A DNA stretch of 64,000 nucleotides. Origin: an uncultured Kordiimonas sp. Lineage in GTDB: Bacteria > Pseudomonadota > Alphaproteobacteria > Sphingomonadales > Kordiimonadaceae. The notes below the pieces were generated by a model, which saw nothing but the letters and a program-made list of their open reading frames with translations, had not been told where the DNA came from and searched no databases. Where the stretch lies: positions 496,001-560,000 of the forward strand of contig CANNDZ010000001.1 in the NCBI GenBank assembly GCA_947503575.1. The letters run 5' to 3'. Positions 14,885 to 38,706 of this stretch are shown in pieces. A program made the position numbers and the translations under genes. The first letter of the stretch is position 1. Every line of letters starts with the position of its first letter.

Positions 14885-14974
14885 TTATGGATGAAGATTG
14901 TGATTTTCAGTTCAACCAGCGATCATGATGTGGATAAAGCCATTGTGGCCATGGTTCGGCGCAGGGAATTTTAG

Positions 14975-17678: not shown

Positions 17679-17679
17679 T

Positions 17680-18477: not shown

Positions 18478-18488
18478 GGGCTTATGCC

Positions 18489-20836: not shown

Positions 20837-21361
20837 TTGTCCTTGGTCTTATTGGCTTTGGTGTTCGGCGCTTTTCTGGCAGCTTTGTGGTTCATGCGCC
20901 CGCAACATGAATTATTGTCTGTGATATTATTCACCAACCTTGCCGTGCTTGCCATTTATGATGCCCGCAGTTTCCGGTTGCCAAACCTGTTGACCTTATC
21001 TTTGTTTATCGCCGGGGTAGCAGCCACTGTTATCGCCCCTCGATACCCGGTTATTGATCACCTTATCGGTGCTGCGGTGGGTTTGTTCCTGTTTCCGGCG
21101 ATTAATTTTGTCTATCGGCAGCTACGGGGACATGATGGGATCGGTCTGGGCGACGCCAAATTGTTGGCGGGTCTTGGCCTGTGGCTCGGATGGCCGGCAT
21201 TGCCGCCTCTGGTCTTGGTTGGCTCGCTGCTGGGACTCGCTTACGCGGCACTCATGATGACCCTAAAGCCTGGTGAAAGAAGTAAACATACTGTCAAAAA
21301 CCCGATCCCTTTTGGATTTTTCCTGGCTATCTCCGGCTGGCTGACTTGGCTTTTTTTCTAA
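20837..21361 (+). CDS. Type IV prepilin peptidase (A24), single-domain
   Basis: A 174-residue inner-membrane aspartyl protease that cleaves (pseudo)pilin leader peptides. The two catalytic aspartates are visible: the first in AIYDARSFRLPN and the second in the GxGD motif GIGLGDAKLLAGLG. It lacks the N-terminal cysteine-containing methylase domain of GspO/PilD (about 250+ residues), as in CpaA/TadV-type enzymes. With no other peptidase near the T2SS operon, it is the likely processor of GspGHIJK. The start is doubtful: TTG at 20837 is the first start-like codon, GTG at 20861 the next, neither with a good ribosome-binding site. Confidence 0.82.
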   Translation: MSLVLLALVFGAFLAALWFMRPQHELLSVILFTNLAVLAIYDARSFRLPNLLTLSLFIAGVAATVIAPRYPVIDHLIGAAVGLFLFPAINFVYRQLRGHDGIGLGDAKLLAGLGLWLGWPALPPLVLVGSLLGLAYAALMMTLKPGERSKHTVKNPIPFGFFLAISGWLTWLFF

Positions 21362-21586
21362 GCGCGGTTTCCTCAACCCATTGAGCATAATAGATAAAAA
21401 CTCACTCTGCCGAAACGCCGTTCATACCTGATCGCAATGTTACAAAAACGGTAAAACTTCCGAAAAGAAACTGTCACAAATCCTCGTTAAACGTCGGCCC
21501 CATGAACCGGTGGGTGGGCCTGCTGGCGCTTATCTAATCGACACAAGATTTTTTCAGGTGACGGATCTCGTCAAACGGGGAACACG

Positions 21587-24454
21587 ATGACAAACAATGA
21601 AATTCTCAAGAAAACTTTGTTGGCTGCAGTAGCGTCTGTTGCGCTTGTGGCTTGCGGAGATGATAGCACTGAGCTGGCATCACCGGGCTTAGAAACGCCA
21701 GCTCCAAACCCTACTCCCAATCCCGACCCGGATCCGGACCCCGATCCAGAACCATCGGTTAAACTGGGCCGTGGTGGTATCGAATATACCTCTGACGGGA
21801 ACTGTCCGACTGGAACCACTTCCGCAACCGTAGGCGACCAAACGCACTGCGCGATTTCAGGCACCATTACTAACGATGTGACCCTGACATCTGGCAACAT
21901 CTATCAGTTATCGGGCAAGGTTGCTGTTGGTGTAGACACCGGCGCGGACGATTCAGCCGCAGCGGGTGATGCTGCCGTGCTGACTATCGAGCCCGGCGCG
22001 GTTATTTATGGTGCGACAGCTTCGGATGTCCTTGTTATCTCGCGCGGCTCTGAAATTCGGGCCAACGGTACAGCAACAAATCCCATTGTTTTCACATCTG
22101 CTTTGGACCTTAATCTGGCCACCGAGCTTGGCCTAAATGCGCCAGCTTCTTTCAATGGCGCGCTTTTGGATGAGCCGTTTACCTCTGAGTGGGGCGGCCT
22201 CGTAATCAACGGCCAGGCGCCAATCAATACGTGTAACGGTGCGGGCACCTGTGAAGCTGAAGGCGAGGGCGATAGCGGTCTTTATGGCGGCGATGACGCC
22301 ACCGATTCGAGCGGCACAATGCGCTATGTCCAGGTAAAATATGCGGGCAACCCGATCACAGCTGATGACGAGTTGAACGGTATTGCTTTCCAGGGTGTTG
22401 GTTCTGGAACGACGCTTGAGTATATCCAGGTGCACAATGGTGCTGACGACGGTATCGAGTTTTTTGGTGGTACGGCTCAGGCCAAATATCTGGTGATCAC
22501 CGGCGCCGATGATGACAGCCTGGATTGGACACAAGGCTGGCGCGGTAAAGGCCAGCACATCATTATCATTCAAAACCCGGCTCAACCTGCTTCTGACCAG
22601 GGTATCGAAGCAGATAACTTTGGCGATGGTAACGACTTCCTGCCGCGTGCACAGCCTCAATTGTCTAACATGACGATTGTCGGTTCCGACTCGCGCAGTG
22701 GCGAGTCGGACGTTGGTGTGCTGCTGCGTGAAGGCACAGGCGCCAACATCTGGAACACAGTCGTTTCTGACTTTGGGGATGCTTGTCTCGATATCGATGA
22801 CACCGCAACCTTTACGGCGGCTGGGTCGAGCGCAACCAACCTTACGGGCACGCTGACAATCGAATCTACGCTGCTTGGTACAGATTGCGCGGAAGTATTC
22901 CAAAGCGACGACAATGTGTTCGATCTCGAAGCGTACTTCACTAACCAGGCGAACAACCAGGTCGGTGTAACCTCACTGTCAAACTTGTTCATCAACGGGT
23001 CTGCAGAAAACGCCGTTACAGCAACGGATCCAAGCGCTGTTGATACTTTCTTTGATAGTGTTGACTATGCGGGCGCCGTACGCAGCAGCGCGGCTGACGA
23101 TAACTGGACGCTAAACTGGACATACGGCCTGAACCCTGATCCGGAGTGCCCAACAGGTACAACGGCAAACGCCGACGGCACTGTGTGTACGCTGACCGGT
23201 ACTTACACAGACGACCTTCGTCTGGTATCGGGTCTGACTTATCAGCTTTCAGGCAAGGTAACCATTGGTGTTGATATGGGCCCCGACCCTGCCAGCCCGC
23301 TTGGTTCTGGTGATGCCGCTACCCTGACCATTGAACCTGGTGTAACGATTGAAGGTGAAGACACCACATCTTACCTGGTGATCTCTCGCGGTTCCAAGCT
23401 GAACTCGAACGGTACGGTTGACGCACCGGTTACATTCACGGCAACCGACCCGGACACTCGCGACCTTGATACGGACACGTCGTTGTGGGGTGGTATCGTG
23501 ATCAACGGCCGCTCAACCATCAATACATGTAATGGCTCTGGCATCTGTGAAGCAGAAGGCGAAGGCGATAGCGGCCTGTATGGCGGCACCGACGAAGCCG
23601 ACGATAGTGGTCAGATATTCTACACACGCGTTGTCTATGCGGGTAACCCGATTACGGCGGATGACGAACTGAACGGGATCGCTTTCCAGGGTGTTGGCTC
23701 CAACACTGAAATCGACTTCCTGCAGGTTCACAACGGTGCTGATGACGGGATTGAGTTCTTCGGTGGTACCGCTGAAGCCAAGCACTTGGTGATCACGGGC
23801 GCTGACGATGACAGCCTCGATTGGACACAGGGTTGGCGCGGAAAGGTTCAGCACCTGTTGATTATCCAGAATCCTAACCAGCCTGCTTCTGACCAGGGCA
23901 TCGAAGCCGATAACTTCGGCGACGGTAATGACTTCCTGCCTCGTGCTCAGCCAATGATTGCGAACGCGACCATCGTTGGTTCGCTCGCAGCGGGCGGCGA
24001 AACAGATGTGGGCGTGCTGCTGCGCGAAGGTACGGGTGCGAACCTGTGGAACGTTGTTGTGGCAGACATGGGTGACGCCTGCCTGGATATCGATGATACA
24101 GCGACCTTCACGGCGGCGGGCTCAAGTGCCACTAACCTGACAGGGACCTTGACCATCGAAAGCACGCTCCTGAGTGACAGCTGCGTTGAAGTCTTCCAGA
24201 GCGATGATAATGCCTTTGACCTGGAAGATTATTTCACGAACCAGGCGAACAACCAGGTGGCCACAGACAGCCTTGCTGCTTTGGCAGGCGCCGCGGCCTT
24301 CAAGACCTACATCAATGGGTCTGTTGAAGCCGGTGTGACCGTCACGGATGTGAGCGCAATCGACAGCTTCTTTGATGCAGTGACCGCCGTTGGCGCAGTA
24401 CCAAACGCATCTGGCGATTGGACACTGGGTTGGACGGTTTGGCTCGACCGCTAA
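21587..24454 (+). CDS. Large internally duplicated surface-type lipoprotein
   Basis: A 955-residue lipoprotein: signal peptide with lipobox LVAC (Cys23), then a Pro/Asp/Asn-rich spacer (about residues 37-56) and two tandem copies of a roughly 435-450-residue domain (about 70-505 and 518-950). Both copies share CPTGTT, YQLSGKV.IGVD, LTIEPG, AGNPITADDELNGIAFQGVGS, HNGADDGIEFFGG and DDDSLDWTQGWRGK, and look like a parallel beta-helix with many Asp/Asn turns, possibly calcium-binding. I cannot name an activity. GGGGAA precedes the ATG. A TonB receptor gene follows directly and the T2SS operon after that, so export by T2SS to the cell surface is plausible. Confidence 0.85.
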   Translation: MTNNEILKKTLLAAVASVALVACGDDSTELASPGLETPAPNPTPNPDPDPDPDPEPSVKLGRGGIEYTSDGNCPTGTTSATVGDQTHCAISGTITNDVTLTSGNIYQLSGKVAVGVDTGADDSAAAGDAAVLTIEPGAVIYGATASDVLVISRGSEIRANGTATNPIVFTSALDLNLATELGLNAPASFNGALLDEPFTSEWGGLVINGQAPINTCNGAGTCEAEGEGDSGLYGGDDATDSSGTMRYVQVKYAGNPITADDELNGIAFQGVGSGTTLEYIQVHNGADDGIEFFGGTAQAKYLVITGADDDSLDWTQGWRGKGQHIIIIQNPAQPASDQGIEADNFGDGNDFLPRAQPQLSNMTIVGSDSRSGESDVGVLLREGTGANIWNTVVSDFGDACLDIDDTATFTAAGSSATNLTGTLTIESTLLGTDCAEVFQSDDNVFDLEAYFTNQANNQVGVTSLSNLFINGSAENAVTATDPSAVDTFFDSVDYAGAVRSSAADDNWTLNWTYGLNPDPECPTGTTANADGTVCTLTGTYTDDLRLVSGLTYQLSGKVTIGVDMGPDPASPLGSGDAATLTIEPGVTIEGEDTTSYLVISRGSKLNSNGTVDAPVTFTATDPDTRDLDTDTSLWGGIVINGRSTINTCNGSGICEAEGEGDSGLYGGTDEADDSGQIFYTRVVYAGNPITADDELNGIAFQGVGSNTEIDFLQVHNGADDGIEFFGGTAEAKHLVITGADDDSLDWTQGWRGKVQHLLIIQNPNQPASDQGIEADNFGDGNDFLPRAQPMIANATIVGSLAAGGETDVGVLLREGTGANLWNVVVADMGDACLDIDDTATFTAAGSSATNLTGTLTIESTLLSDSCVEVFQSDDNAFDLEDYFTNQANNQVATDSLAALAGAAAFKTYINGSVEAGVTVTDVSAIDSFFDAVTAVGAVPNASGDWTLGWTVWLDR

Positions 24455-24468
24455 GCAAATGCTGAAGG

Positions 24469-24501
24469 CGCCGCAGGAGGGCTTCGTGCTCTGCTGCGGC
24501 G
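24469..24501 (+). promoter_or_regulatory. Intercistronic hairpin between lipoprotein and TonB receptor genes
   Basis: CGCCGCAG (24469-24476) pairs with CTGCGGCG (24494-24501) around a 17-base loop. There is no T tract, so it is more likely an mRNA-stabilising or partial-termination element than a full terminator. It would allow the two genes to be expressed at different levels from one transcript. Confidence 0.45.
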
Positions 24502-24524
24502 TCACGCACAAATATGAAAGCTAA

Positions 24525-27149
24525 ATGGTGGCCAAAATGAAATTGAACCACAAAAAACTAAAGCATTTGCTTTTGGCTTCGACGGTGCTGATTGTACCGA
24601 CCGGGGTTTTCGCTCAAGAGGAAGCCGAACAGCCACAGGACGACATTGAAGAAATCACTGTTCTGGGTCGCTTTATTCCCGATGAAAAACGGGCGACGTC
24701 AGAGATTTCAAACGTTCTGGACGCAGAGGCCTTTACGCTGGCAGGGGACGGAAATGTTGCAGCTGGTTTGCAGCGTTTGCCGGGTGTCTCCTTGGTGGGC
24801 GGCAAATATATTTATGTTCGCGGTCTTGGTGACCGTTACTCTTCAACGCTGCTGAACTATTCAGGCATTCCAAGCCCTGATCCGTTGCGGCGTGTTGTTC
24901 CATTGGACCTGTTCCCTACGTCTATCATCGAATCAGTATTGGTGCAGAAAACATTCTCGCCAGAATATCCTGCTGAATTTGGTGGCGGTGTTGTTGATCT
25001 GCGGACCAAAGCGGTGCCTGACGAGTTTATCCTCGAGGTGGGCCTGTCTGGCAGTTACAACAGCGAGGCAACCGGGAAAACCGGTCTCAGTTATGATGGT
25101 ACTGGCTCCGAAATTTTTGGTTTTGGCGGGTCGCGTCGTAATATCCCTGATGAAATTCTGCAGGATGTGACGCTTGAAAGCCTGACAGCCGAAGAACTTG
25201 AGGCTGCCGGGGAATCTATTCCCAACATCTGGTCGATTGATGAAGAACCAATTTATCCGGGTGCCGGTCTGAACTTTGTTGTGGGTGACCGTATTGATGT
25301 CGGCAGTGAGAGCGCTTTCGGCTTTTTCGTAGCCGTTGATTATGACGTTGATACGCGTAACCGTAACGGTGTGCGGCGAACTGTGACGGTGAATGATGCA
25401 GGCGGTCAGGCGGAAACCAACTTTGCGCCAGAGGTTTGTAACAACCCGGAATTTGGTGAGGTGCCGCCCGACGATTGCGGCGTGCGCCAGACGTTCCTTG
25501 ATGTGTCTTTGAACGGTTTGCTCTCTCTCGGCTACGAGTTCAACAACGATCATTCTATAAACTACACGGGAACCGTTCTGCGGCAGTCCACTAAACGCGC
25601 GGTGATCGAAAAAGGCGTGTTCGCGCAGGAAGATGCTTTGCGGACGCGCTCGACCATTGATTGGATTGAAAGCCAGGTCTGGACCAACCAACTGACCGGC
25701 GAGCATATCCTAAACCTGTTTGGAGACAGCGACACGTTCCAGCAGACGGAAATTAACTGGCGGGCAAACATCTCTCGGTCTGACCGCGATGTGCCGTCTC
25801 GTCGTAGTACGATCTACGAACTCAACCCTGAACTGGGTGTCGATCTCCTTCTTCCAACAACGGTTGGTAACACCACAGTTTACAATGCGCTGGATGAAGA
25901 GACTAAAGAGTTTGGCCTGAATTTCGTTCAGCCAACTTATATTGCCGATCTTCCGATCGACTTTTTGGGTGGTTTCACCTACCAGGACAAAGAGCGTAGC
26001 TTCGGTCTGGTTCGCTATACCTACGAACTCGCTCGGACCGCCGGCCTAAACGATCTGCGGGCCCGCGTGCCTGAGATTATCTTTGGCCCTGCCAATGTTG
26101 GCCCGGGCCAAAATACGCTTCTGGAGTTGTTTGACAGATCCGACTTCTACACGGTGGATTTCGAGAATGTTCAAGCGTACTTGGGTGCGGATATCGAGCT
26201 TTCAGCAAAAGCGCGGTTGGCCGTTGGTTTACGCTATGAGGATAGCACGCAGATTGTGGATACAGCCGAGCGGACAACACCTTTTAACCCGATCCGCATT
26301 TCCCAATTTGGTGAGTTTTGGCTGCCATCTGCAACTTTCACGTACGAAATTGTTGAAAACATGCAGCTTCGTCTGGCTTTCAGCCAAACGCTCAACCGAC
26401 CAGACCTTCGGGAACTGTCGAACGCGCGTTTCCTTGACGAAGAATTAAACCGGACTGTGCAGGGTAATCCTGAGTTGCGGATTGCTGAAATCAATAACTT
26501 TGACGCCCGCTTTGAATGGTACTTTGGCACAGGCGAAAGCCTGACCATCGGTGCCTTCTACAAAGACTTCACAAGGCCCATCGAGCTGAGTGCCCAGGCC
26601 TTTGGTGAAGGACGATTGATTACCGCGATCAATGCCGCCTCAGGTGAGTTGAGAGGTATTGAAGCCGAAGTTGAGAAAATCCTGTTCCTGCAAGACTGGT
26701 GGGGCTGGGACTGGCTTGGTTCCCGTGAAGTATTTGTCAAAGCGAATGGTTCCTACATCGACAGCGAGTCGGTCACTGCTGAAGAAGATCTGGGTATCGT
26801 GACGAATGCGGTTCGTCCGTTCCAGGGTCAGTCCGAGTGGCTTGCCAACCTTCAGTTTGGCTGGCGCGATTATGATCGCGGTGAAAACTTTGCTGTTGTC
26901 TTGAATTACACTGGACGCCGCCTGGCTTTCATTGGTGTATTTGAGGCTCAGGATGAGTTTGAAACACCGCCAATTATGCTGAACCTTGCGTACAGCAAAG
27001 AGTTTGAGGTTGGCGGCAGCATCCTGGAGTTAAGCCTTGGGGCAGAGAACCTTCTGGGTGACGAATTCCGCTTGTCACAAGAAGGCATTATCACGGAAGG
27101 GTACGAAATTGGTCGCACCGTTTCTGTTGGTCTGACCTTCAAATATTGA
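24525..27149 (+). CDS. TonB-dependent outer-membrane receptor
   Basis: An 874-residue TonB-dependent receptor. A signal peptide (LKHLLLASTVLIVPTGVFAQ) is followed by a TonB box (EITV at 43-46). The plug domain (about 55-180) has VAAGLQRLPGVSLVGGKYIYVRG, GLGDRYSSTLLN and PAEFGGGVVDLRTK. The rest is the 22-strand barrel, ending in an aromatic residue (SVGLTFKY). The plug resembles receptors often encoded with large surface lipoproteins, not classical siderophore receptors; the substrate is unknown. The ATG at 24525 has a weak GAAAG upstream; ATG 24537 is an alternative. Its upstream neighbour is probably its partner. Confidence 0.9.
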   Translation: MVAKMKLNHKKLKHLLLASTVLIVPTGVFAQEEAEQPQDDIEEITVLGRFIPDEKRATSEISNVLDAEAFTLAGDGNVAAGLQRLPGVSLVGGKYIYVRGLGDRYSSTLLNYSGIPSPDPLRRVVPLDLFPTSIIESVLVQKTFSPEYPAEFGGGVVDLRTKAVPDEFILEVGLSGSYNSEATGKTGLSYDGTGSEIFGFGGSRRNIPDEILQDVTLESLTAEELEAAGESIPNIWSIDEEPIYPGAGLNFVVGDRIDVGSESAFGFFVAVDYDVDTRNRNGVRRTVTVNDAGGQAETNFAPEVCNNPEFGEVPPDDCGVRQTFLDVSLNGLLSLGYEFNNDHSINYTGTVLRQSTKRAVIEKGVFAQEDALRTRSTIDWIESQVWTNQLTGEHILNLFGDSDTFQQTEINWRANISRSDRDVPSRRSTIYELNPELGVDLLLPTTVGNTTVYNALDEETKEFGLNFVQPTYIADLPIDFLGGFTYQDKERSFGLVRYTYELARTAGLNDLRARVPEIIFGPANVGPGQNTLLELFDRSDFYTVDFENVQAYLGADIELSAKARLAVGLRYEDSTQIVDTAERTTPFNPIRISQFGEFWLPSATFTYEIVENMQLRLAFSQTLNRPDLRELSNARFLDEELNRTVQGNPELRIAEINNFDARFEWYFGTGESLTIGAFYKDFTRPIELSAQAFGEGRLITAINAASGELRGIEAEVEKILFLQDWWGWDWLGSREVFVKANGSYIDSESVTAEEDLGIVTNAVRPFQGQSEWLANLQFGWRDYDRGENFAVVLNYTGRRLAFIGVFEAQDEFETPPIMLNLAYSKEFEVGGSILELSLGAENLLGDEFRLSQEGIITEGYEIGRTVSVGLTFKY

Positions 27150-27160
27150 TGCAAATAAAT

Positions 27161-27192
27161 TGGGGCTTGCCGCCACGACGGTAAGCCCCAAT
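27161..27192 (+). terminator. Stem-loop after the TonB receptor gene
   Basis: A 13-base-pair stem TTGGGGCTTGCCG / CGGTAAGCCCCAA (one G-T pair) with a 6-base loop, 12 bases after the stop codon. There is no U tract on the downstream side, so it may attenuate rather than fully stop transcription into the T2SS operon. Confidence 0.6.
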
Positions 27193-27270
27193 ACTCCCGT
27201 CTTTCAAACAGCCCATAGAGGCTGGGACGAATAATACGAATGTTGATGCTTGTGGAGACGTACCATTTCC

Positions 27271-28161
27271 ATGGAAAGTGCTGGACATCTCTCAACCGGC
27301 AGGACGAAGCTCCCGTCTCCGCCGCGCAGTATGCGTGTGGTGGTTACCTGTGTAGAGCTGGGTCTTGCTGCGCTCTTGGCCTATTTTCTGGCACAGTTCA
27401 GCTTTGCTTTGCTAGCGGTTGATCCGCCACTTGAAAGACCGCTGCCTAGGGTGCAGGTCTCAAATCTTGCAACTGCAAGCTTTGATGGCCTAACAGATTT
27501 TGATCCTTTTTTCAGAGAGCTGCAAGGTGCTCAGGTTGCGGCACAAGCGGCAGTAAGAGAGAGCTCCCTGCGGCTGGAAGTATTTGGCTTGAGGGCCGAA
27601 CCTGATGGCCGCGGCACTGCAATCATAAAAGCGCAAGACGGTGAGCAGAGGCTTATACGTGTGGGTGACCGTGTTGCTGCAGGCGTAACATTGGCGGCTG
27701 TGTTCCCGGATCGCCTGGAAGTAAATCGTGCAGGCATCAGAGAAGCTATTTATCTGCGCCCGCAAAAGGAACGCAGCGCGACGCCCCTTTCACCACCCCG
27801 CGCAGCATCCACCCTGCAAGCGGGGTCGCCGATGGCACCGCAGTTCGACCTTGCAGGTTTTGGCCTAACACCTGTTCGGCGCGAACGCCGGGTTATCGGC
27901 TTTCTGGTGCCTAACCCTTTGCCACTGCCATTGATGGGGTCAGGCCTTGAAGCAGGCGATATTTTAACGCATGCAAACGGGGAACCGCTGGTATCATTTG
28001 AGCGGTTGTTGGAAATTGGGGAAGGCCTGTCAGGGGCACAGAAACTCGCGCTTGAAATAGAGCGGCGCGGCGAGCGGCGAAACCTGACACTTAGCTTGGC
28101 CAATAGTTCGATCAATGGTTCGGCCAATGACTCAGCCAGTGATCTAGGAGGAACCCGCTAG
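27271..28161 (+). CDS. gspC: T2SS inner-membrane protein GspC
   Basis: A 296-residue GspC: a short cytoplasmic N-terminus, one membrane helix (VTCVELGLAALLAYFLAQFSFALL), a periplasmic homology region (about 85-165, with LEVFGLRAEPDGRGTAIIKAQDGEQ and VGDRVAAGVTL) that docks on GspD, and a C-terminal PDZ-like domain (about 190-280, with GSGLEAGDILTHANGEPL). It links the inner-membrane platform to the secretin and may take part in substrate choice. The ATG at 27271 is picked, but GGAG lies rather far upstream (about 14 bases) and an upstream GTG/TTG cannot be excluded. gspD follows the stop immediately. Confidence 0.85.
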   Translation: MESAGHLSTGRTKLPSPPRSMRVVVTCVELGLAALLAYFLAQFSFALLAVDPPLERPLPRVQVSNLATASFDGLTDFDPFFRELQGAQVAAQAAVRESSLRLEVFGLRAEPDGRGTAIIKAQDGEQRLIRVGDRVAAGVTLAAVFPDRLEVNRAGIREAIYLRPQKERSATPLSPPRAASTLQAGSPMAPQFDLAGFGLTPVRRERRVIGFLVPNPLPLPLMGSGLEAGDILTHANGEPLVSFERLLEIGEGLSGAQKLALEIERRGERRNLTLSLANSSINGSANDSASDLGGTR

Positions 28162-30150: not shown

Positions 30151-30155
30151 AGGCC

Positions 30156-31652
30156 ATGCAGGAGCAAACTGACCATAAGCTTCGATATACGTTTGCCCGG
30201 GACCATGGGTACGCTTTGGTTGATGTGACCCAAGACGGCGCGACCCTCATTATGCGGGACGATGCCACCCTGCGACTATTGCCGGAAGTCCGCCGGGTTG
30301 CTGGGGTACCCCTGACCATAGAAACCCGGAGCAAGCCGGAATTTGATTCGCTCTTGTCGGATATGCATGCGGTAGAAGGCATCAATGAAGAACTGAGCGA
30401 TGAGCTGCCTGCCGACAGCCTGGACCGGGCACTTGAAGGTATGCCCGCCGTTGCTGACTTGCTGGCCAGCGAAGATGACGCGCCGGTTATACGCTTGATC
30501 AATAGCCTGATCGCCGAAGCGGTTAAAAATGCGGCGTCAGATGTCCATCTGGAGCCCTTTGAAAACCGATTGTCCGTAAGGTTGCGGGTTGATGGCGTGT
30601 TAACCGAAATTGCCAGTCTTGCAGCCCGCCTGACACCTTATATTGTGTCGCGTATCAAAGTGATGGCGCGTCTGGATATTGCAGAAAAACGTGTACCTCA
30701 GGATGGTCGTTTATCTTTGAAGCTTGGGTCCCGCGTGTTTGATGTTCGGGTTTCCACGTTACCGGCCCGGCATGGGGAGCGGGTTGTGCTGCGTCTTCTG
30801 GATGCGTCACAAGCGCATTTTTCGCTTGAGGACCTAGGCATGGGACCCGCTGTCCATTCAGGTTTCAGGGACCTACTAACGGAACCGAATGGCATTATTC
30901 TGGTAACCGGCCCAACAGGGTCAGGCAAAACCACGACACTCTATGCTGGTCTTGGTTTATTGAATGACCAAAGCCGCAATATCATGACGGTCGAGGACCC
31001 GGTGGAATACGCGCTGGACGGTGTTAGCCAGACCCAGGTCAATTCAAAGGTCGGGATGACTTTCGCGTCTGGCCTACGGGCCATTCTGCGGCAGGACCCG
31101 GACGTGGTGATGGTGGGTGAAATTCGCGATATGGAAACGGCAGAGATGGCAATACAAGCCAGTTTGACCGGCCACCTTGTCCTGTCGACAGTGCATACCA
31201 ACAGTTCCGTTGCTGCCATCACAAGATTGCGGGATATGGGTGTGGAACCCTTTTTGCTGGCTTCAACTGTTAAGGGTATTTTGGCTCAACGCCTTGTGCG
31301 TAAACTGTGTGATGTTTGCAAGAAACCCGCCGCAAATCCAGCGGACTTGTTAAGTCAATTGGGCCAGACTGATGAACCCAAGGCCACCTTAATGGAAGCT
31401 GTTGGGTGCCAGGCTTGTGGTGGCAAAGGCTATCGCGGTCGGATCGGCATTTACGAACTTGCGACCATTGACGACACCCTGCGCAAAATGATCCAAGAAA
31501 ATGCATCTGAACAGGATATGGAGGCTATTGCCTTCAATAATCGGGGTACATTGGCCGATAGTGGTCGTGAACTTGTGCTTGCCGGTGTAACCACCATTGA
31601 AGAAGTACTACGGGTATCCCGGATCAAGGAGACATCCGGTGCAGGCATTTGA
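30156..31652 (+). CDS. gspE: T2SS assembly ATPase GspE
   Basis: A 498-residue cytoplasmic secretion ATPase. It has an N-terminal N1E-type region, the linker to the catalytic core, Walker A GPTGSGKTTT (252-261), the Asp and His boxes (VEDPVEYALDG, TGHLVLSTVHTN), Walker B (VVMVGEIRD) and a tetracysteine zinc domain with Cys385/Cys388 and Cys418/Cys421. It drives pseudopilus growth and binds GspL. The ATG lies five bases after gspD, and the stop is inside the start of gspF. Confidence 0.96.
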   Translation: MQEQTDHKLRYTFARDHGYALVDVTQDGATLIMRDDATLRLLPEVRRVAGVPLTIETRSKPEFDSLLSDMHAVEGINEELSDELPADSLDRALEGMPAVADLLASEDDAPVIRLINSLIAEAVKNAASDVHLEPFENRLSVRLRVDGVLTEIASLAARLTPYIVSRIKVMARLDIAEKRVPQDGRLSLKLGSRVFDVRVSTLPARHGERVVLRLLDASQAHFSLEDLGMGPAVHSGFRDLLTEPNGIILVTGPTGSGKTTTLYAGLGLLNDQSRNIMTVEDPVEYALDGVSQTQVNSKVGMTFASGLRAILRQDPDVVMVGEIRDMETAEMAIQASLTGHLVLSTVHTNSSVAAITRLRDMGVEPFLLASTVKGILAQRLVRKLCDVCKKPAANPADLLSQLGQTDEPKATLMEAVGCQACGGKGYRGRIGIYELATIDDTLRKMIQENASEQDMEAIAFNNRGTLADSGRELVLAGVTTIEEVLRVSRIKETSGAGI

Positions 31653-32868
31653 ATACAGTGCCGTTGACCGGAACGGAAAGGCTTGCAAGGGAACGATTTC
31701 CGCCGATGGTCCGAATGAGGCGCGGCGAACGCTTCTAGCACGGCAGATATATGCAACAGACATCAAGCCCACCGGGTCACGTGGGAAATCTGTTGCCAAT
31801 TTTTTGCCCGCCATTTTTCGTCAGCAGGAAAAAATAGGCTCCAAGGAACTGGCGCTGATTACCCGGCAAATGGCGACAATGATAGAAGCGGCATCTCCGG
31901 TGGAAGAGGTGCTGGCCGCGTTGGCGCAGCAGGCTGAAAAATCCACCACGAGGGCGATCCTGTCCCGTGTGCGCACAAATGTGATCGAAGGCATGCGCCT
32001 GTCACGAGCCATGGAAGAGGAACCGGCGACGTTTGATTCGCTCTACTGCTCAATGGTGGCTGCGGGTGAGGCGGCTGGTGCTCTTGGGTCTGTTCTGTCT
32101 CGTGTTGCTGACCACCGGGAAAAGTCGGAAGAAACGCGGGCAAAGATTCAGTCGGCCCTCATATATCCTGCTGTGCTGCTAACCGTTGCAACGGGGGTTG
32201 TCACTGCCTTGATGGTTCTGGTCGTGCCCAAGGTTGTGGCCCAGTTCGACAGTTTTGGCGGTGAATTGCCTGCGATTACGCAAATAGTGGTCGGTATTTC
32301 TAATTTTTTGTCGAGTTATGGTCTTTTTTTGCTGCTTGTTATTACCGCTCTTGTCTTTGGTTTTGGTGTGGCGATGCGTAGACCGGCGGTTCGATATCAT
32401 GTCCATACGGGTTTATTGGCACTGCCGGTGATCGGGCGATTGATCAGGTCTGTTAATGCGGCCCGGTTTGCCCGGGCATTTGGCACGCTTGTGCTGGGGG
32501 GAAGCCCAGTGCTGGAAGCGATGGTCGCTGCCAAAGAAACAATCCGGAGCGCCCCCATAAAAAGTTCCCTTTCTGATGCGATAACGCGGGTCCGGGAAGG
32601 CAGCGGTGTTGCAGGCAGCTTACAACAGGTAGCGGCGCTACCACCGATGTTGTCATACATGGCATCTGCGGGGGAGCGCAGCGGCCAGTTGGGTATGATG
32701 ATGCATAAGGTTGCTGATTATCTGGAAAGTGAATTTGACGGCTTTACCAAGTCTGCCCTTAGCCTTCTGGAACCAATGATTGTAATATTGATGGGTGGGA
32801 TTGTTGGCGTGATTGTAATGTCCATCATGCTGCCAATCCTGAGGCTGAACAGCCTTGTCCTTTTGTAA
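31639..32868 (+). CDS. gspF: T2SS inner-membrane platform protein GspF
   Basis: A 409-residue GspF with two cytoplasmic T2SSF helical bundles (about 70-190 and 270-390) and three membrane segments. The start FEYSAVDRNGKACKGTI is typical. The GTG at 31639 follows AAGGAG and overlaps gspE by 14 bases; the longer in-frame ORF from 31597 adds 14 atypical residues. GspF rotates or supports pseudopilin assembly at the membrane. Confidence 0.94.
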   Translation: MQAFEYSAVDRNGKACKGTISADGPNEARRTLLARQIYATDIKPTGSRGKSVANFLPAIFRQQEKIGSKELALITRQMATMIEAASPVEEVLAALAQQAEKSTTRAILSRVRTNVIEGMRLSRAMEEEPATFDSLYCSMVAAGEAAGALGSVLSRVADHREKSEETRAKIQSALIYPAVLLTVATGVVTALMVLVVPKVVAQFDSFGGELPAITQIVVGISNFLSSYGLFLLLVITALVFGFGVAMRRPAVRYHVHTGLLALPVIGRLIRSVNAARFARAFGTLVLGGSPVLEAMVAAKETIRSAPIKSSLSDAITRVREGSGVAGSLQQVAALPPMLSYMASAGERSGQLGMMMHKVADYLESEFDGFTKSALSLLEPMIVILMGGIVGVIVMSIMLPILRLNSLVLL

Positions 32869-32879
32869 GGAGAGTAACA

Positions 32880-33344
32880 ATGAAACGATGTATCGCCGGT
32901 TGGAAAGCATGGGTTAAAAAAGCCACAGCGGAAGATGCCGGTTTTTCGCTTATTGAGTTGATGGTCGTGATTGTCATCATGGGATTGCTGACAACGATTG
33001 TAGTGGTCAATGTGCTGCCAAGTCAGGACCGCGCGATGGTGGAAAAGGCACGCACCGATGTGCGCATGATCGAGCAAGCCATAGAGATGTATCGTATCGA
33101 TACCCGCAAATACCCAACCCTTGAAGAAGGTTTGGATGCGCTGACCGCCGCGCCTAGGGGGTCAAGCCTGCGCACCGAGAGCTACATCAAGTCGTTGCCG
33201 ATGGATCCATGGGGTAACCCCTATCAGTATCTGATACCGGGCGAAAACGGCCAGTTTGATGTCTTTTCCTTTGGCGCAGACGGTCGCAGTGGCGGCGATG
33301 GCTTGAATGCAGATATCGGCAACTGGACCCGCGACGACAACTGA
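32880..33344 (+). CDS. gspG: T2SS major pseudopilin GspG
   Basis: A 154-residue major pseudopilin. A 22-residue basic leader ends in Gly, then FSLIELMVVIVIMGLLTTIVV, with Glu5 of the mature protein. The C-terminal calcium loop is seen as LPMDPWGNPYQYL...FDVFSFGADGRSGGDGLNADIGNW. It builds the pseudopilus that pushes substrates through GspD. The leader is cut by a prepilin peptidase, probably the one encoded at 20.8 kb. GGAGAG precedes the ATG. Confidence 0.95.
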   Translation: MKRCIAGWKAWVKKATAEDAGFSLIELMVVIVIMGLLTTIVVVNVLPSQDRAMVEKARTDVRMIEQAIEMYRIDTRKYPTLEEGLDALTAAPRGSSLRTESYIKSLPMDPWGNPYQYLIPGENGQFDVFSFGADGRSGGDGLNADIGNWTRDDN

Positions 33345-33345
33345 T

Positions 33346-33840
33346 ATGAAAAGACTGGCTGATAATCGTGGTTTTTCGCTTGTTGAGGTGATGGTGGTGG
33401 TTGCCATTGTCGGCCTTATGGCAGGTGTTGTTGTCTTGTCACTGCCATCAAAATCAAACCAGTTTCGCCAGTCCGTTGAACAAACCGGACGTACCTTAAC
33501 TGCCCTGTCACGCAGCAGCATCCTTAGCGGCCAGACCGTTGGCGTTGTTTTCAAGCCCACCGGGCTTGCGGTCATGCGACTTGGCGACAATGGTTGGGTC
33601 AACGATGGGACTATTTTGAAAACCGGTTTAGCGCACTGGTCGGACCTGTCGCTTGTTTCATTGTATGTGGATGATACAGAACAATCTTTGTCGTCGGACC
33701 GGGTGGACCCTCACGTCTGGTTCTTGCCAACCGGTGATTATCCATCCTTCACCCTTGCTTTTGCTGGTGATGCAGGCGGCGCAACTGTGTCCGCTGAGAC
33801 GGCCGCCCCTGTGCGTGTGAGCTTTGATAATGAACCGTAA
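33346..33840 (+). CDS. gspH: T2SS minor pseudopilin GspH
   Basis: A 164-residue minor pseudopilin with the leader MKRLADNRG and the helix FSLVEVMVVVAIVGLMAGVVV (Glu5 kept). The rest is a beta-rich head. GspH lies in the pseudopilus tip complex with GspI, J and K. The ATG at 33346 begins one base after the gspG stop; its own end overlaps gspI by 11 bases. Confidence 0.88.
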   Translation: MKRLADNRGFSLVEVMVVVAIVGLMAGVVVLSLPSKSNQFRQSVEQTGRTLTALSRSSILSGQTVGVVFKPTGLAVMRLGDNGWVNDGTILKTGLAHWSDLSLVSLYVDDTEQSLSSDRVDPHVWFLPTGDYPSFTLAFAGDAGGATVSAETAAPVRVSFDNEP

Positions 33841-34243
33841 CTACACAATGCCATCCAAGCTCAAAAAGGCTGCAAAAGTATGCGATGAGAGAGGCTTCTC
33901 CCTGATAGAGTTGCTGGTTGCTGTGTCGATTTTAGCGCTGGTTGCTGTGGCGCTCCTTGATGGGCAAACCCAGGCTATCACCATTACCGGAAAGCTGGAG
34001 GAGCGAAGCCTGGCGTCCGTGGTTGCCGAAAACAGGCTGAACCTTGCACTTGGATTGGTAGAACCACCGGCACCGGGCGTGCGCAGCGGCAGGGAACAGC
34101 AGTTGGGCATGACCTTCGAGTGGCGCGAGACGGTCAGGCCTGCCCCTGGCAATGATCTGACCATTATCGAAATTATTGTCGCGTCCCCAGACAACCGACA
34201 AACGGACCTTGCTCGTTTGGTTGGTTTTCGGAAAGCGCCCTGA
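33830..34243 (+). CDS. gspI: T2SS minor pseudopilin GspI
   Basis: A 137-residue minor pseudopilin with a basic leader ending ERG and the helix FSLIELLVAVSILALVAVALL (Glu5 kept). GspI starts assembly of the tip complex with GspJ and GspK. The ATG at 33830 lies inside the end of gspH; a TTG at 33824 is also in frame. The following gspJ starts one base after its stop. Confidence 0.88.
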   Translation: MNRNYTMPSKLKKAAKVCDERGFSLIELLVAVSILALVAVALLDGQTQAITITGKLEERSLASVVAENRLNLALGLVEPPAPGVRSGREQQLGMTFEWRETVRPAPGNDLTIIEIIVASPDNRQTDLARLVGFRKAP

Positions 34244-34244
34244 T

Positions 34245-34874
34245 ATGCGATGGACCGAAATATATAGCAAGAGCAAAAGCGACAGCGGGTTTTCCCTGGT
34301 GGAAACCCTGATAGCAACCTTCATTTTTGCGATTATCAGCGCTATGGCCGTCGCCCTCATTTCAAACTATCAGACGAGCAGGCTCGGCTTGCAGTCTGCT
34401 GATGAGCGGCTGGCACAGTTGCAAACCGCGCGCGCCGTCATGCGGGATGACTTTTTTTCCGTGGTTAACCGACCGGTTAGGGACCAGTTTGGTGCCATGT
34501 TGAGTGCGTTTGAGGGCGGCCAGCACATGGGGGATGGCATCAAGTTACGCCTGGTACGCGGCGGTGATGCAGGTGCCAAGCTGAACGGAACCGTGTCACA
34601 AGTTAAGCGCATTGATTATATGCTGATAGACGGCAACCTGACGCGGCGCACCTATGTTCGGCCTGATACGGTGCCTGGCGGGCGCTACACGGATCAGCGC
34701 TTGCTGGAAGGTGTTGAGGCAGCTGAATTGCGGTATGCCTCAGATGGAATTTGGAGCGATGAATGGGGTACCAACGCAGCCATTAGTCCGGTCCCAAGGC
34801 TTGCGGAACTTTCTCTGCGGTTTCTTGGTGGTCAGGAAATGCGAATGACCTTCGTCGTTGGGGCGCCAACATGA
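34245..34874 (+). CDS. gspJ: T2SS minor pseudopilin GspJ
   Basis: A 209-residue minor pseudopilin with a leader ending DSG and the helix FSLVETLIATFIFAIISAMAV (Glu5 kept). The head domain is about 170 residues, the usual GspJ size, with family-like segments RLQLQTARAVMRDDFFSVVNRPVRD-type near residue 65. The longer in-frame ORF reading into gspI is rejected in favour of the ATG at 34245. The stop overlaps gspK as ATGA. Confidence 0.88.
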   Translation: MRWTEIYSKSKSDSGFSLVETLIATFIFAIISAMAVALISNYQTSRLGLQSADERLAQLQTARAVMRDDFFSVVNRPVRDQFGAMLSAFEGGQHMGDGIKLRLVRGGDAGAKLNGTVSQVKRIDYMLIDGNLTRRTYVRPDTVPGGRYTDQRLLEGVEAAELRYASDGIWSDEWGTNAAISPVPRLAELSLRFLGGQEMRMTFVVGAPT

Positions 34875-35854
34875 TCAAGCGCACTATAAATCATTCCCGG
34901 AGCGAGTGCGGTGCAGCCCTCGTAACAGTATTGCTGTTGGTAACCGTGATGGCGCTTGGTGCTGTTGTGACATTCGAGGCACTGGGCTTTTCGATCAAGC
35001 GCGCGGGTGCTCTAAGGGAATATGACCAAGCGCGACAGTATGCGATAGGCGGCGAGCAATTGGCACTGTCCGTTGCAGAAACCCTCTTCGAATCTGAAAC
35101 TGTTCTGGTGGCGCCAAGAGCCGTCTCCTTCCCCATTGATGGCGGTCGGATTGACGGCGTGATAACTGATAACAGCAATTGTTTTAACGTTAACAGCCTC
35201 GTTGTTCGCCGGGATGCTGGAACTCTCGTTGCTAATGCCGAAACCGGGCGGCAATTTTGGCGTTTGCTGACAGCCCTTGGGATCGCTGACCGTCAGGCAG
35301 AAGAATTGCTGGCTGCTCTGACCGATTGGCTGGACAGTGACAGTCGACCCTTACCCATGGGCGCAGAAGACTATGATTATGCCAATTTGCAGGACCCTTA
35401 TCGTACGGCCAATGGTTTGATGGCGGACACATCCGAGCTTTATATGGTGCAGGGGTTTGATCCCCTTTTACTCGAGGCGGTGAAGCCATTTTTGTGCGCC
35501 AGAGCAACGACCGAACCATCAGTGCTCAACCTCAATAGCCTGACTGAACTGCACGCACCCTTGCTGGTTGCATTAATTGGCGGTGATTTCGGCTTTGACA
35601 TGGCGATCGAATTGATCTTGGCCCGGCCCGGCAATGGGTACGGCAATGTTGCGGACTTCTGGCTTGATCCGCTTTTAGCCGGGCGGGAGGTAGAACAATC
35701 TGTCAGACGCCAGACCAGCGTAAAAGCGCATCAGTTTACCAGCAGATTGCGCGTAACCTATTATGACGCCGTTAGTTATTTGACCACGGACATTAATGTT
35801 GATGAGGCTGGCGTTGCCTCGGTCATACGCCACCATGCAGGAGTATTGCCGTGA
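34871..35854 (+). CDS. gspK: T2SS minor pseudopilin GspK
   Basis: A 327-residue GspK. The leader ends with CG and the helix is AALVTVLLLVTVMALGAVVTF; residue 5 is not Glu, as is characteristic of GspK at the pseudopilus tip. The large alpha domain includes DWLDSDSRPLPMGAEDYDYANL, which carries the calcium-site residues of the family. Tip position and lack of Glu5 mean it caps the pseudopilus. Start and stop both overlap neighbours by four bases. Confidence 0.9.
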   Translation: MIKRTINHSRSECGAALVTVLLLVTVMALGAVVTFEALGFSIKRAGALREYDQARQYAIGGEQLALSVAETLFESETVLVAPRAVSFPIDGGRIDGVITDNSNCFNVNSLVVRRDAGTLVANAETGRQFWRLLTALGIADRQAEELLAALTDWLDSDSRPLPMGAEDYDYANLQDPYRTANGLMADTSELYMVQGFDPLLLEAVKPFLCARATTEPSVLNLNSLTELHAPLLVALIGGDFGFDMAIELILARPGNGYGNVADFWLDPLLAGREVEQSVRRQTSVKAHQFTSRLRVTYYDAVSYLTTDINVDEAGVASVIRHHAGVLP

Positions 35855-36957
35855 CCCAAACGTTGGTCATTGAAGTCGACGAAAATGCCACATCCGTTGT
35901 CCATGCGGCCTTGGTTGATGACGTGGGCCTATCGTCTGTACCGGTCAACAATCTGCCTGCGTTAGAACATGGTGGACGTGTTATCGTTGTTCTCGATGGT
36001 CGCGCGGTTGCCGCCCATGCTATTGACCTGCCTGCCGTTGATGATGCCAAAGCACGCAAAATTTTACCGGCAATTTTGGACGACAAAATCGCATCGCTGG
36101 ACGTGCCTGTGCATATGGCATTGATTGGTGACAGAAACCCAGAGACGGGCAAACGTATCGTCGCGGTGGTTGGCCAGCATGTAATGACCAATATGATGAC
36201 TCTTATGGCTACGCTCGGGATAAACCCCGATGTCGTTGTGCCGGACTTTATGCTGCTAACGCCGATGGAGGATGCCACCGTTACGCTGTCCCACCGGGAT
36301 GTTCGCCTTGTGCGTCTGCCAGACGGTGATGGTTATTGCCTTGATCAGTCCTGCAGTGACACCGTATTCGGCGATCAACCGGCGCATCCTTTGCCTGCAG
36401 ATGCTTGGGACACGTGCCTGCAAGGGATCACCGCCACAGACATCAACCTTCTGCAAGGTAGTTTTGCACCGCGAAACAGCCTTGGGCAGCAGTTGATATG
36501 GTGGCGTCGTTCAGCGATGCTGGCAGTACTTATTGTGGCCATTGTATCAATAACAACCTGGTATGATGCCCAGGAAAATTTTCGCAAAGCAGATGCCTTT
36601 TATCAGGGCGCTGAACGCGTATTCCGTCAGGCATTGCCGGAAGAAACGCGCATCATCAACATGGAAGTACAGTTGCGCAGAGCGCTGGCCAGCCGTCGAC
36701 AGCAAGGCGGCAGTGAGTTTTTTGTGCTCAGCGGCCATGTCTTTAATGCGATACAAGCGGGCGAGCAGGCCTTGCTTGAAACGTTGCGCTACAACAAAGA
36801 AAGCGGCGAGCTGATTCTTGATGTTTCTTTTGCAACCTTTGCTGAAAGCGCGGAATTCAAACAAGAACTGGAACAAAGTGGCATGCAGGTTACAGAGGGC
36901 AGTAGCCGTCAGGAGGCCGGTAGGGTTTATTCCGAAATTCGGCTCAGGAGACCATAA
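35851..36957 (+). CDS. gspL: T2SS inner-membrane protein GspL
   Basis: A 368-residue GspL: an actin-like cytoplasmic domain of about 220 residues that binds GspE, one membrane helix near residue 225 (MLAVLIVAIVSITTW), and a ferredoxin-like periplasmic domain. The GTG at 35851 overlaps the gspK stop. GspL transmits ATPase motion to the pseudopilus with GspM; gspM begins in its stop codon (TAATG). Confidence 0.85.
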   Translation: MTQTLVIEVDENATSVVHAALVDDVGLSSVPVNNLPALEHGGRVIVVLDGRAVAAHAIDLPAVDDAKARKILPAILDDKIASLDVPVHMALIGDRNPETGKRIVAVVGQHVMTNMMTLMATLGINPDVVVPDFMLLTPMEDATVTLSHRDVRLVRLPDGDGYCLDQSCSDTVFGDQPAHPLPADAWDTCLQGITATDINLLQGSFAPRNSLGQQLIWWRRSAMLAVLIVAIVSITTWYDAQENFRKADAFYQGAERVFRQALPEETRIINMEVQLRRALASRRQQGGSEFFVLSGHVFNAIQAGEQALLETLRYNKESGELILDVSFATFAESAEFKQELEQSGMQVTEGSSRQEAGRVYSEIRLRRP

Positions 36958-37445
36958 TGCAGGAATACTGGCATTCATTGACGGTGCGCGAACGATCCTT
37001 GATCTCGGTGGGTGCTATCATGTTAGGGCTCACCATTGCCTATTTCCTGATTGCCCGCCCGCTGTTGCAGTACAAGGCCGACAGTGAACGTGCCTATGCG
37101 TCGGCAGAGGCAACTTTTGAAACAATACAGCGCCACGCAGCTGAGTTGAAAATCCATACGCAGTCCAGCCAATCCCTAAAGCCACAGGTGCAGCCAGCCA
37201 CGTCCCTGCGTGTTGCCGTTTCAAATGCGGCACGGCAGGCTAGTGTGACGGTCAGCCGCTTGCAGCCCTCAGAAGATGGTGCGTTGACGATCTGGGCCGA
37301 AGGTGTGCAAAGCGCGCAAATGTATCAATGGCTGCGGCAATTGGCACAGGAACGCGGCATTGGTCCCAGCAATGTTCTGGTTCAAAAGGCAACAGACGGC
37401 AATAGCTTACGGGTGCAGTTTCGCTTTGAAGAGGGTAGCCCGTGA
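36957..37445 (+). CDS. gspM: T2SS inner-membrane protein GspM
   Basis: A 162-residue GspM with a short cytoplasmic N-terminus (EYWHSLTVRERSLISVGAI), one membrane helix and a periplasmic ferredoxin-like domain ending VQFRFEEGSP. It stabilises GspL. Position, length and topology make the assignment secure although sequence conservation is low. Confidence 0.85.
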   Translation: MQEYWHSLTVRERSLISVGAIMLGLTIAYFLIARPLLQYKADSERAYASAEATFETIQRHAAELKIHTQSSQSLKPQVQPATSLRVAVSNAARQASVTVSRLQPSEDGALTIWAEGVQSAQMYQWLRQLAQERGIGPSNVLVQKATDGNSLRVQFRFEEGSP

Positions 37446-38176
37446 CAAAAGTGCGCGATCTTCTACTGCTCGTCATTCTGGTCTTTATTGTTGCTTTTGG
37501 TGTGTATTTGCCTGCCGCGGTAGCACTGCGGTTTGTCGATCTTCCCACAGGTATGACCTATAGATCAGTTCAAGGGTCCGTATGGCATATGCGCTTTGAA
37601 GAGACCGTCCTTTTTGGCCGGCCAATAGGGATGCTTGAGCTTTCACCAAGCCCGATATCCATTTTGGGCAGCACACAAGGCACTGCAAAAATTGCTGGTT
37701 CTGATATGCAGGCGGAGTTTGTATTCGAATTTGACGAAACCCTGCATGTCGATGAGCTGTTTGTCACTACCGGCATCCAAACTTCTTTGATGGGACTGGC
37801 TGCCAGTGGTGTTGCGGACATCTCAGATGCCAATCTCGTGCTTGAGCCATCAGGTCGATGTCGTGAGGCATCAGGGCGGCTGAAAACTGATATATTTCGG
37901 GCGGCGTTTACGGCATTTGGTTTGGCAAGCGATGCAATAACCACCAATCTTCGGTGTGATGCGGGCGTCTTATCTTTTTCTTTTTCCCGCCAGTTGGACG
38001 GCGGTGTTCTGGATATTCAAGGGCGGTTGACCAGGCCACAGGAAATCAATCTGGCCATGCAGTTACGGTTTGACGATCAGGCCCGAATGCCGCAACAATG
38101 GATAAATGGTCTTGGCCGTGCTGGTTTTCAGGCAACTGATGATGGATGGCGCGCCGAAGTGAGGGTGCCGCTTTGA
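37442..38176 (+). CDS. gspN: T2SS protein GspN
   Basis: A 244-residue GspN-like protein: one N-terminal membrane helix (LLLLVILVFIVAFGVYLPAAVAL), then a periplasmic beta-rich domain with VQGSVW and an FEFDETL-type segment. GspN is found only in part of the T2SS and its role is poorly defined. GTG at 37442 overlaps gspM by four bases; the stop overlaps the following lipoprotein gene by four. Confidence 0.78.
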   Translation: MTKVRDLLLLVILVFIVAFGVYLPAAVALRFVDLPTGMTYRSVQGSVWHMRFEETVLFGRPIGMLELSPSPISILGSTQGTAKIAGSDMQAEFVFEFDETLHVDELFVTTGIQTSLMGLAASGVADISDANLVLEPSGRCREASGRLKTDIFRAAFTAFGLASDAITTNLRCDAGVLSFSFSRQLDGGVLDIQGRLTRPQEINLAMQLRFDDQARMPQQWINGLGRAGFQATDDGWRAEVRVPL

Positions 38177-38706
38177 CACAAAACGACATAACAAGGCTCT
38201 GCCGTAGTTTGACGATATGCGCTGCTTTTGCATTATCTGCCTGTGGTGGTTTGCCAGAGCGATCCTCATCCACCGTACCCCAAGCGTCCCAGCCATCATC
38301 TGGACCGACGTCCCGAATAGTGCTGGGTGATGACGAGGTATTGTCACGGCTTAGTGCCTTGCCTGCACAGCAACTGGCCAATGGTGAATGCGGAATGTTT
38401 TTGTGGGCCAAGCGGGATGATGCACCGCTGGTTTTTTTCCAGCGATCTGGTGGACAAGCATATATGGACCTTGATGGAAATGTAGCGCAGTTAGACCGTA
38501 TTGGTGTGGAAGATGTTATTGGTTTGCAGTTTCACAAGAACCAGCAATTCACGATGACAGACATGAATATCAGAGTGGCAGTTGTCCCCGAAAACACGCA
38601 GTCCCTGCAGCAAGGTCTGAAGTTGCCTACAGGGAGTATTTCCGTATCGACTGGCGATGGCTGGAGCGCGTCTATACCTGTAGCTGGCGCAATTGGCTGT
38701 AAGTAA
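38173..38706 (+). CDS. Small lipoprotein encoded at the end of the T2SS operon
   Basis: A 177-residue lipoprotein with lipobox LSAC (Cys24, followed by GG). The mature part has a Ser/Pro-rich linker then a compact domain (LVFFQRSGGQAYMDLDGNVAQL and so on) that I do not recognise. The TTG at 38173 overlaps the gspN stop as TTGA, so coupling is strong; an earlier in-frame start at 38146 would add nine residues. Being the last gene of the T2SS operon, it might serve as a pilotin (GspS analogue) or secretion accessory. This is inference from position. Confidence 0.7.
   Translation: MTQNDITRLCRSLTICAAFALSACGGLPERSSSTVPQASQPSSGPTSRIVLGDDEVLSRLSALPAQQLANGECGMFLWAKRDDAPLVFFQRSGGQAYMDLDGNVAQLDRIGVEDVIGLQFHKNQQFTMTDMNIRVAVVPENTQSLQQGLKLPTGSISVSTGDGWSASIPVAGAIGCK

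Follow-up and report, generated by a model that had tools for sequence, protein, structure and literature searches.

The locus and its doubled lipoprotein

The window analysed here, a stretch of 64,000 nucleotides from an uncultured Kordiimonas sp. (GenBank assembly GCA_947503575.1, contig CANNDZ010000001.1, positions 496,001 to 560,000 of the forward strand), carries genes for a prepilin peptidase, a 955-residue lipoprotein, a TonB-dependent receptor (TBDR), the GspC to GspN components of a type II secretion system (T2SS) and a terminal lipoprotein. An earlier note, made from the letters alone, had picked out these open reading frames (ORFs), and all are confirmed in place on the + strand. 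Very probably this is an ElpS-type locus, a known kind, with a doubled surface protein. The account judged best, with moderate confidence, is that the lipoprotein, an ElpS relative in doubled form, serves, probably independently of the T2SS, as a surface partner capturing a phosphorus compound for the TBDR under phosphate starvation. The features at its centre are as follows.

20837..21361, + strand, single-domain A24 prepilin peptidase, GspO-like (PF01478, 76.3 bits)
21458..21489, + strand, conserved upstream block with half-sites at 11-bp spacing, candidate regulator site
21587..24454, + strand, 955-aa lipoprotein, doubled and ElpS-like, with predicted signal peptide and predicted lipid-bearing Cys23 at 21653-21655
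21797..23134, + strand, lipoprotein domain 1, beta-helix-like (profile domain 1 of 2)
23141..24448, + strand, lipoprotein domain 2, 65% identical to domain 1
24525..27149, + strand, TBDR with plug and barrel (PF07715, PF00593)

Aligned over 458 columns, the halves of the lipoprotein show 65% identity, and their DNA agrees at 74% over 781 bp. There are two homologous domains, as had been supposed, though the description of them as near-identical is overstated for the whole and fits the core only. The whole protein has no Pfam or NCBIfam match at E≤0.01, and domain 1 has no match among PDB sequences at E≤1. The doubled form, 72-85% identical, is present in all eight related loci found, which come from four Kordiimonas or Kordiimonadaceae genomes (one of them, L010, being Kordiimonas laminariae 5E331), one Sphingomonadales metagenome-assembled genome (MAG) and three MAGs of Alphaproteobacteria.

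At the N-terminus the window protein has the lipobox LVAC/GDDST, and GDDSTELASPG and an acidic, Pro-containing spacer follow. The LVAC lipobox, CGDDSTEL and Gly at +2 are common to all nine proteins, that is, the window protein and its eight relatives. The Asp/Pro spacer emphasized earlier is found in the window protein and L003; L007 has a mixed spacer, and the remaining six of the nine proteins have a Gly-rich one. More widely, the motif after the lipid-bearing Cys is short and ends in SPG in most same-class members, and is GGDI-like mostly in those of the Alteromonas type; both may possibly be surface-sorting signals.

The lipoprotein and the receptor form the conserved unit

The order peptidase, lipoprotein, TBDR is kept in all eight related loci, with gspC-J next in the seven whose stretch continues, and its retention is more than chance would give. 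With wider profiles 61 loci were examined, comprising the eight relatives, 46 loci from survey genomes and seven plasmid records (L010 and L078 were taken as one genome, and G471 contributes two loci); neighbourhoods were read for 43 of the 56 other carriers in the phylum sample and for G129 and G341 of the class sample. In 58 of the 61 loci the lipoprotein gene has a TBDR gene as neighbour, directly downstream in 55 and upstream in three, across Alphaproteobacteria, Gammaproteobacteria and Bacteroidota; in the other three, one of them at a contig end, no TBDR was found. That lipoprotein and receptor belong together, as the earlier note had it, is borne out, and the conserved unit is lipoprotein plus TBDR. 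In the window the TBDR gene starts 70 bp downstream of the lipoprotein gene, and its product scores below the cut-off of TIGR01782. Genes for ExbB, ExbD and mostly TonB are near the pair in 11 loci.

Two further observations concern the neighbours of the pair. A gene for a 2-oxoglutarate (2OG)-Fe(II) oxygenase adjoins it in L028 (8549-9313), G550, G584, G626, G717, G580, G696, G712 and Alteromonas. Contig C1 of G471 has two near-identical single-domain copies (L097 and L098), at about 0.88 Mb and 3.19 Mb and so some 2.3 Mb apart, one with an upstream TBDR gene and ExbB/ExbD/TonB genes and the other without a TBDR close by.

Relation to described systems

The order elpS-cc0171-gspC..N was printed for Caulobacter in 2010, with the remark that Xanthomonas campestris, Sphingomonas alaskensis and Hyphomonas neptunium have a similar one (Le Blastier 2010, PMC2996285), and ElpS relatives with TonB-dependent transporters (TBDTs) responsive to low phosphate followed in 2020 (Lidbury 2020, PMC8115612), so the suggestion of an undescribed system has to be given up. 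The window locus shares with the ElpS locus the order lipoprotein gene, TBDR gene, gspC-N, as tested and found here, a lipobox with its Cys near the N-terminus (in nine of nine proteins) and a phosphate context. It differs in that its lipoprotein has two domains and 955 residues in place of a single domain and about 50 kDa, in that its peptidase gene precedes the lipoprotein gene whereas that of Caulobacter follows gspN on the other strand, and in having pst-phoU close by. Because of the two domains and 955 residues it is better filed as a variant than as a plain member. Same-class genomes also yielded single-domain relatives, about 500 aa long and with this gene order. Homology to CC0170 itself may be presumed.

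The FI, FII and FIII lipoproteins of Flavobacterium (PUSIII, PUSIV) are ElpS relatives, 31-36% identical to ElpS; two of the three are next to TBDTs, and one of these is beside phoBR (PMC8115612). They belong to a different phylum, their likeness to the window protein is one of description, and no T2SS is mentioned for their clusters in the portions of that paper covered. The SusCD/PusCD systems of Bacteroidota likewise pair a surface lipoprotein with a TonB-dependent transporter, though PusD proteins bear PF07980/PF14322 (PMC8115612), unlike the window lipoprotein, which lacks a Pfam match at the threshold given above and is beta-helix-like. Pullulanase-type lipoproteins are similar in being surface lipoproteins with a T2SS encoded nearby. 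Pullulanase, however, is exported by its T2SS and has Asp at +2 as sorting signal, in contrast to Gly at +2 in the window protein, and ElpS, the presumed homologue, is exposed without the T2SS (PMC2996285). In the open-access literature searched, in so far as the text of the papers was covered, there is no account of a doubled lipoprotein of this kind, of a series in copy number, of gene conversion or of a comparison between TBDR and T2SS linkage, and the search gave no paper that brings Kordiimonas together with type II secretion and TonB. A survey of marine TBDTs (PMC3400609) has two passages on phosphate, neither of which deals with the present pair.

Domain number and probable gene conversion

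The number of full domains per protein varies. It is one in a Sphingomonadaceae-like family (f2), in family f53, in two Bacteroidota records and in others, two in the window's group, Indioceanicola, Pseudoalteromonas and others, and three in Alteromonas and G696. In trees of 43 and of 88 domains (the latter drawn from 93, leaving out L035, which is partial, and L042-L045), the copies within one protein cluster by lineage, strongly supported, and do so in several separate places. Such grouping would result either from recurrent duplication or from homogenisation. To read the trees as independent duplications and nothing else was given up, since for the window's group the codon test speaks for homogenisation.

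This test took positions with the same amino acid in both halves and permuted the C halves among the nine species. In the core (residues ~209-388 and 641-820) the within-species codon match is 0.594, against 0.498 when permuted, with none of 20000 permutations as high, and the species' own C half is best or tied in six of the nine. Outside the core the match is 0.442 against 0.412, with 633 of 20000 as high and the own C half best or tied in two of nine. It counts against reading the core figure at face value that permutation keeps codon bias, which is worth about 0.06 by itself (0.447 against 0.388 at non-homologous positions) and so brings the excess in the core beyond bias, by a rough comparison, to about 0.04. 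Amino-acid changes common to both halves give 505 agreements where 419 are expected, over 125 columns; shared selection could explain these. The unevenness along the sequence and the shared changes add to the argument, and gene conversion between the central parts of the halves in the window's group is supported, not proven, on this comparison of sequences.

Type II secretion: export or release

The genes downstream of the TBDR are these.

27250..28161, + strand, gspC (PF11356)
28162..30150, + strand, gspD, secretin (TIGR02517, 538 bits, over cut-off)
30156..31652, + strand, gspE (PF00437, 491 bits)
31597..32868, + strand, gspF (PF00482), the listed start overlapping gspE and the true start probably downstream
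32880..33344, + strand, gspG, major pseudopilin (PF08334)
33307..33840, + strand, gspH, with only PF07963 (N_methyl), named from its place between gspG and gspI
33824..34243, + strand, gspI (PF02501)
34176..34874, + strand, gspJ (PF11612)
34871..35854, + strand, gspK (PF21687, PF03934)
35851..36957, + strand, gspL (TIGR01709, over cut-off)
36957..37445, + strand, gspM (PF04612)
37442..38176, + strand, gspN (PF01203)
38146..38706, + strand, terminal lipoprotein of the T2SS operon, 186 aa

Secretin, ATPase, inner-membrane platform, pseudopilins and peptidase are all present, so the earlier description of a full T2SS holds, with gspH recognized by place and N-methylation motif only. The peptidase at 20837-21361 has no NCBIfam match; the genome has one other A24 peptidase match, which on contig C2 precedes the sole other secretin match by about 1.9 kb, and the peptidase of the window is probably the T2SS's own pseudopilin peptidase. 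The terminal 186-aa lipoprotein matched no Pfam or NCBIfam family; relatives of it come after gspM/N in six of seven other same-class T2SS clusters examined (L112-L117), and it is a candidate pilotin. Beyond the operon are a gene for a DUF3604 protein (39000-40940, 755 bits) and two adjacent ORFs, 42960-44594 and 44664-46289, that appear from their translations to be exported and amidase-like.

The domain was found in 12 of 387 genomes of the class survey with a narrow profile (A1), probably an undercount, and in 57 of 397 of the phylum sample with a wider one (A2). GspD is present in nine of the 12 carriers and 50 of the 375 non-carriers of the class sample (Fisher p 4e-6) and, at E≤1e-60, the threshold used in what follows, in 48 of the 57 carriers and 172 of the 340 non-carriers of the phylum sample (Fisher p 1e-6), both p values being uncorrected for relatedness. 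The family is therefore not one that occurs mostly in genomes without a T2SS, the outcome that the earlier note had proposed as a check. Adjacency is another matter. Of the 61 loci, 26 have gspD no more than 8 kb from the pair. Among the 34 same-class carriers GspD is present in 26 and within a few kb in 18, so that the T2SS is beside the pair in 18 of 34, against none of 15 loci (gspD within 8 kb) from 14 of the 23 other-class carriers. For the other nine other-class carriers the GspD places listed are on other contigs, second places of several lying outside this count; the GspD places of eleven carriers were checked again. Eight of the 34 same-class carriers have no GspD match at the threshold, two of which (G569, G586) have none at 1e-40 either. 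Two Bacteroidota members pair with a TBDR and have no T2SS gene annotated beside them. With so many carriers lacking an adjoining T2SS, the description of the system as fed by the T2SS is not supported.

In Caulobacter, deletion of gspC-N left ElpS lipidated and fully open to proteinase K, and only cleaved release was lost; release was also blocked by protease inhibitors, and ElpS in its released form has been cut at residue 38 (PMC2996285). That the T2SS exports ElpS, as was stated earlier, thus misreports the source, in which deletion stopped release and left ElpS on the surface. The comparison of surface display with and without the T2SS that the earlier note held to be decisive had accordingly been made in 2010 on the presumed homologue, with a result contrary to that note's model. 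By analogy, surface location, T2SS-independent display and T2SS-dependent release, shown for Caulobacter by others, may extend to the window protein.

Phosphate

Upstream of the locus are the following.

13707..19199, + strand, pstS-pstC-pstA-pstB-phoU (PstC, PstA, PstB and PhoU over NCBIfam cut-offs, PstS family below)
19252-19833, − strand, small gene with no Pfam family
20111-20533, + strand, small gene with no Pfam family

The pst-phoU genes to which the earlier note drew attention are real, though two small genes intervene and the locus does not come directly after them. The adjacency is a feature of the window, and the flank of only one of the eight relatives (L003) has pst-phoU, that of L006 being short (4.5 kb) in this count. 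Both small genes accompany the locus in all eight relatives and were not found in the more distant G624.

A phosphate link exists all the same. On Alteromonas macleodii pBGP9 the order is phoB-phoR-PstS family-2OG oxygenase-triple-domain lipoprotein-TBDR-DUF3450-ExbB-ExbB-ExbD-TonB, with PhoB, PhoR and the PstS-family protein each over NCBIfam cut-offs, and such phoB-phoR-pstS clusters in loci of the Alteromonas type are an independent link to phosphate. There is a strong PhoB match within 6 kb of the pair in eight of the 61 loci; PhoB-like matches of 27-32% identity next to loci of the same order were left out of this tally. In Caulobacter the PhoB regulon takes in the T2SS and various TBDRs (PMC11208175), and others have shown induction of ElpS by phosphate shortage. 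Depletion of phosphate strongly induces three ElpS relatives of Flavobacterium johnsoniae, together with the TBDTs next to two of them, and such loci are repressed under N and Fe limitation (PMC8115612). Phosphate control in the Kordiimonas genome would be in keeping with this.

The block at 21458..21489 is kept in the window and its eight relatives, with half-sites at 11-bp spacing that resemble those of the PhoB/OmpR kind. A classical Pho box was also sought in 14 regions upstream of lipoprotein genes and pstS, among them that of the window's own pstS; the best matches, at 8-10 of 14 positions, were not above dinucleotide shuffles (lowest p 0.117), and because of this the regulator of the block is unproven and the block is a candidate site only.

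Fold

The AlphaFold2 model of domain 1 (21782-23140, from 18 sequences) is mostly beta (pLDDT 74.6, pTM 0.83), and a model of the full-length lipoprotein (pLDDT 52, pTM 0.43) was too poor and was discarded. A fold search of the PDB with domain 1 gave 210 matches at E≤10, the best at E 3.4e-3 and none at E≤0.001, so that beta-helix is to be taken as a statement at the level of class. Nearly all of the 50 matches listed are what we take to be right-handed beta-helix proteins, among them PL6 lyases, pectate lyase, polygalacturonases and phage tailspikes. A beta-helix fold for domain 1 is supported by the model, not proven.

Alternative explanations

Several observations weigh against capture of a phosphorus compound by a T2SS-independent ElpS relative. 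The regions upstream of the lipoprotein gene and pstS gave no Pho box match better than chance, and pst-phoU adjacency recurs in just one of the eight relatives. For Caulobacter it is reported that rich and poor media give equal expression of cc0171, that the T2SS is constitutive and that intracellular phosphate was without measurable change (PMC2996285). Nine of the 57 phylum-sample carriers have no GspD match at E≤1e-60. The presumed homology to CC0170 is argued from gene order, the size of the single-domain relatives, the lipobox and the statements of the papers. CGDD, furthermore, is cited among the inner-membrane retention signals of P. aeruginosa (Le Blastier 2010, PMC2996285), and as GDD follows the lipid-bearing Cys a pullulanase-like T2SS route is possible for this branch. 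The earlier note's model, in which the T2SS exports the lipoprotein itself to the surface, in the fashion of pullulanase, to feed the TBDR, could draw on that signal, though it is listed for another genus, on the close linkage to gspC-N seen in the window's group and elsewhere, and on the higher frequency of GspD in carriers in both samples. It is nevertheless unlikely given that ElpS stays surface-exposed in the Caulobacter T2SS deletion, that same-class carriers without a GspD match exist and that the two Bacteroidota pairs have no annotated T2SS gene alongside.

The lipoprotein might instead be an enzyme, polysaccharide-lyase-like or phosphoesterase-like, that cuts a phosphate-rich polymer whose fragments the TBDR imports, an account which overlaps the best explanation in all but activity. 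Pectate, alginate and chondroitin lyases and polygalacturonases are among the 50 fold matches listed, core acidic residues (D201, D202, E205, D223, D224, D227 and E255 in domain-2 numbering) are invariant across 29 diverse domains, overproduction of ElpS in Caulobacter went with raised secreted alkaline phosphatase activity (PMC2996285), and ElpS relatives were modelled as polygalacturonase-like (Lidbury 2020, PMC8115612); with fold matches as weak as those above and no enzyme family matched in Pfam or NCBIfam, enzymatic activity is judged somewhat improbable. A cargo without phosphorus, such as iron or polysaccharide, with the link to phosphate an effect of neighbours, would fit the lack of conservation of the window's pst-phoU adjacency, the 2OG-Fe(II) oxygenase gene that adjoins the pair in several loci and the absence of phosphate induction of cc0171 in Caulobacter (PMC2996285). 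Against it are the phoB-phoR-pstS genes upstream in loci of the Alteromonas type and, in Flavobacterium, strong induction by low phosphate along with repression under N and Fe limitation (PMC8115612), which make such a cargo quite improbable.

A proposed phosphorus-capture pair and its significance

If the lipoprotein is a T2SS-independent partner of the TBDR, its lipid anchor would take it to the outer face of the outer membrane, probably without the T2SS, where the beta-helix protein may bind or present a phosphorus-containing compound and hand it over to the adjacent TBDR for uptake driven by TonB under phosphate starvation. The T2SS would contribute to this starvation response through the hydrolases it secretes, among them a protease that cuts the lipoprotein from the cell, and not by exporting the lipoprotein. 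Doubling would provide two copies of the same binding surface, the cores of which gene conversion apparently keeps alike.

A broader proposal, put forward tentatively and at somewhat less than even confidence, is that ElpS-type lipoprotein and TBDR are a widespread PhoB-linked pair for phosphorus uptake in Proteobacteria and Bacteroidota, SusCD-like in arrangement but unrelated to SusCD. Its binding beta-helix, present in one, two or three copies, would have been multiplied in tandem several times over or repeatedly re-homogenised, with gene conversion keeping cores alike, and the T2SS would be an alphaproteobacterial addition that trims or sheds the capture protein. Were such a general system for phosphorus capture to hold, it would suggest what a large family may do, of which the window member is without a Pfam or NCBIfam model, and would account for the recurrence of TBDRs in Pho regulons. 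The series of one, two and three domains, together with carriers that do and do not have an adjoining T2SS, makes the questions of export as against release, and of copy number and avidity, testable. The comparison also sets right a mistaken reading of the Caulobacter results on which later work could otherwise be built.

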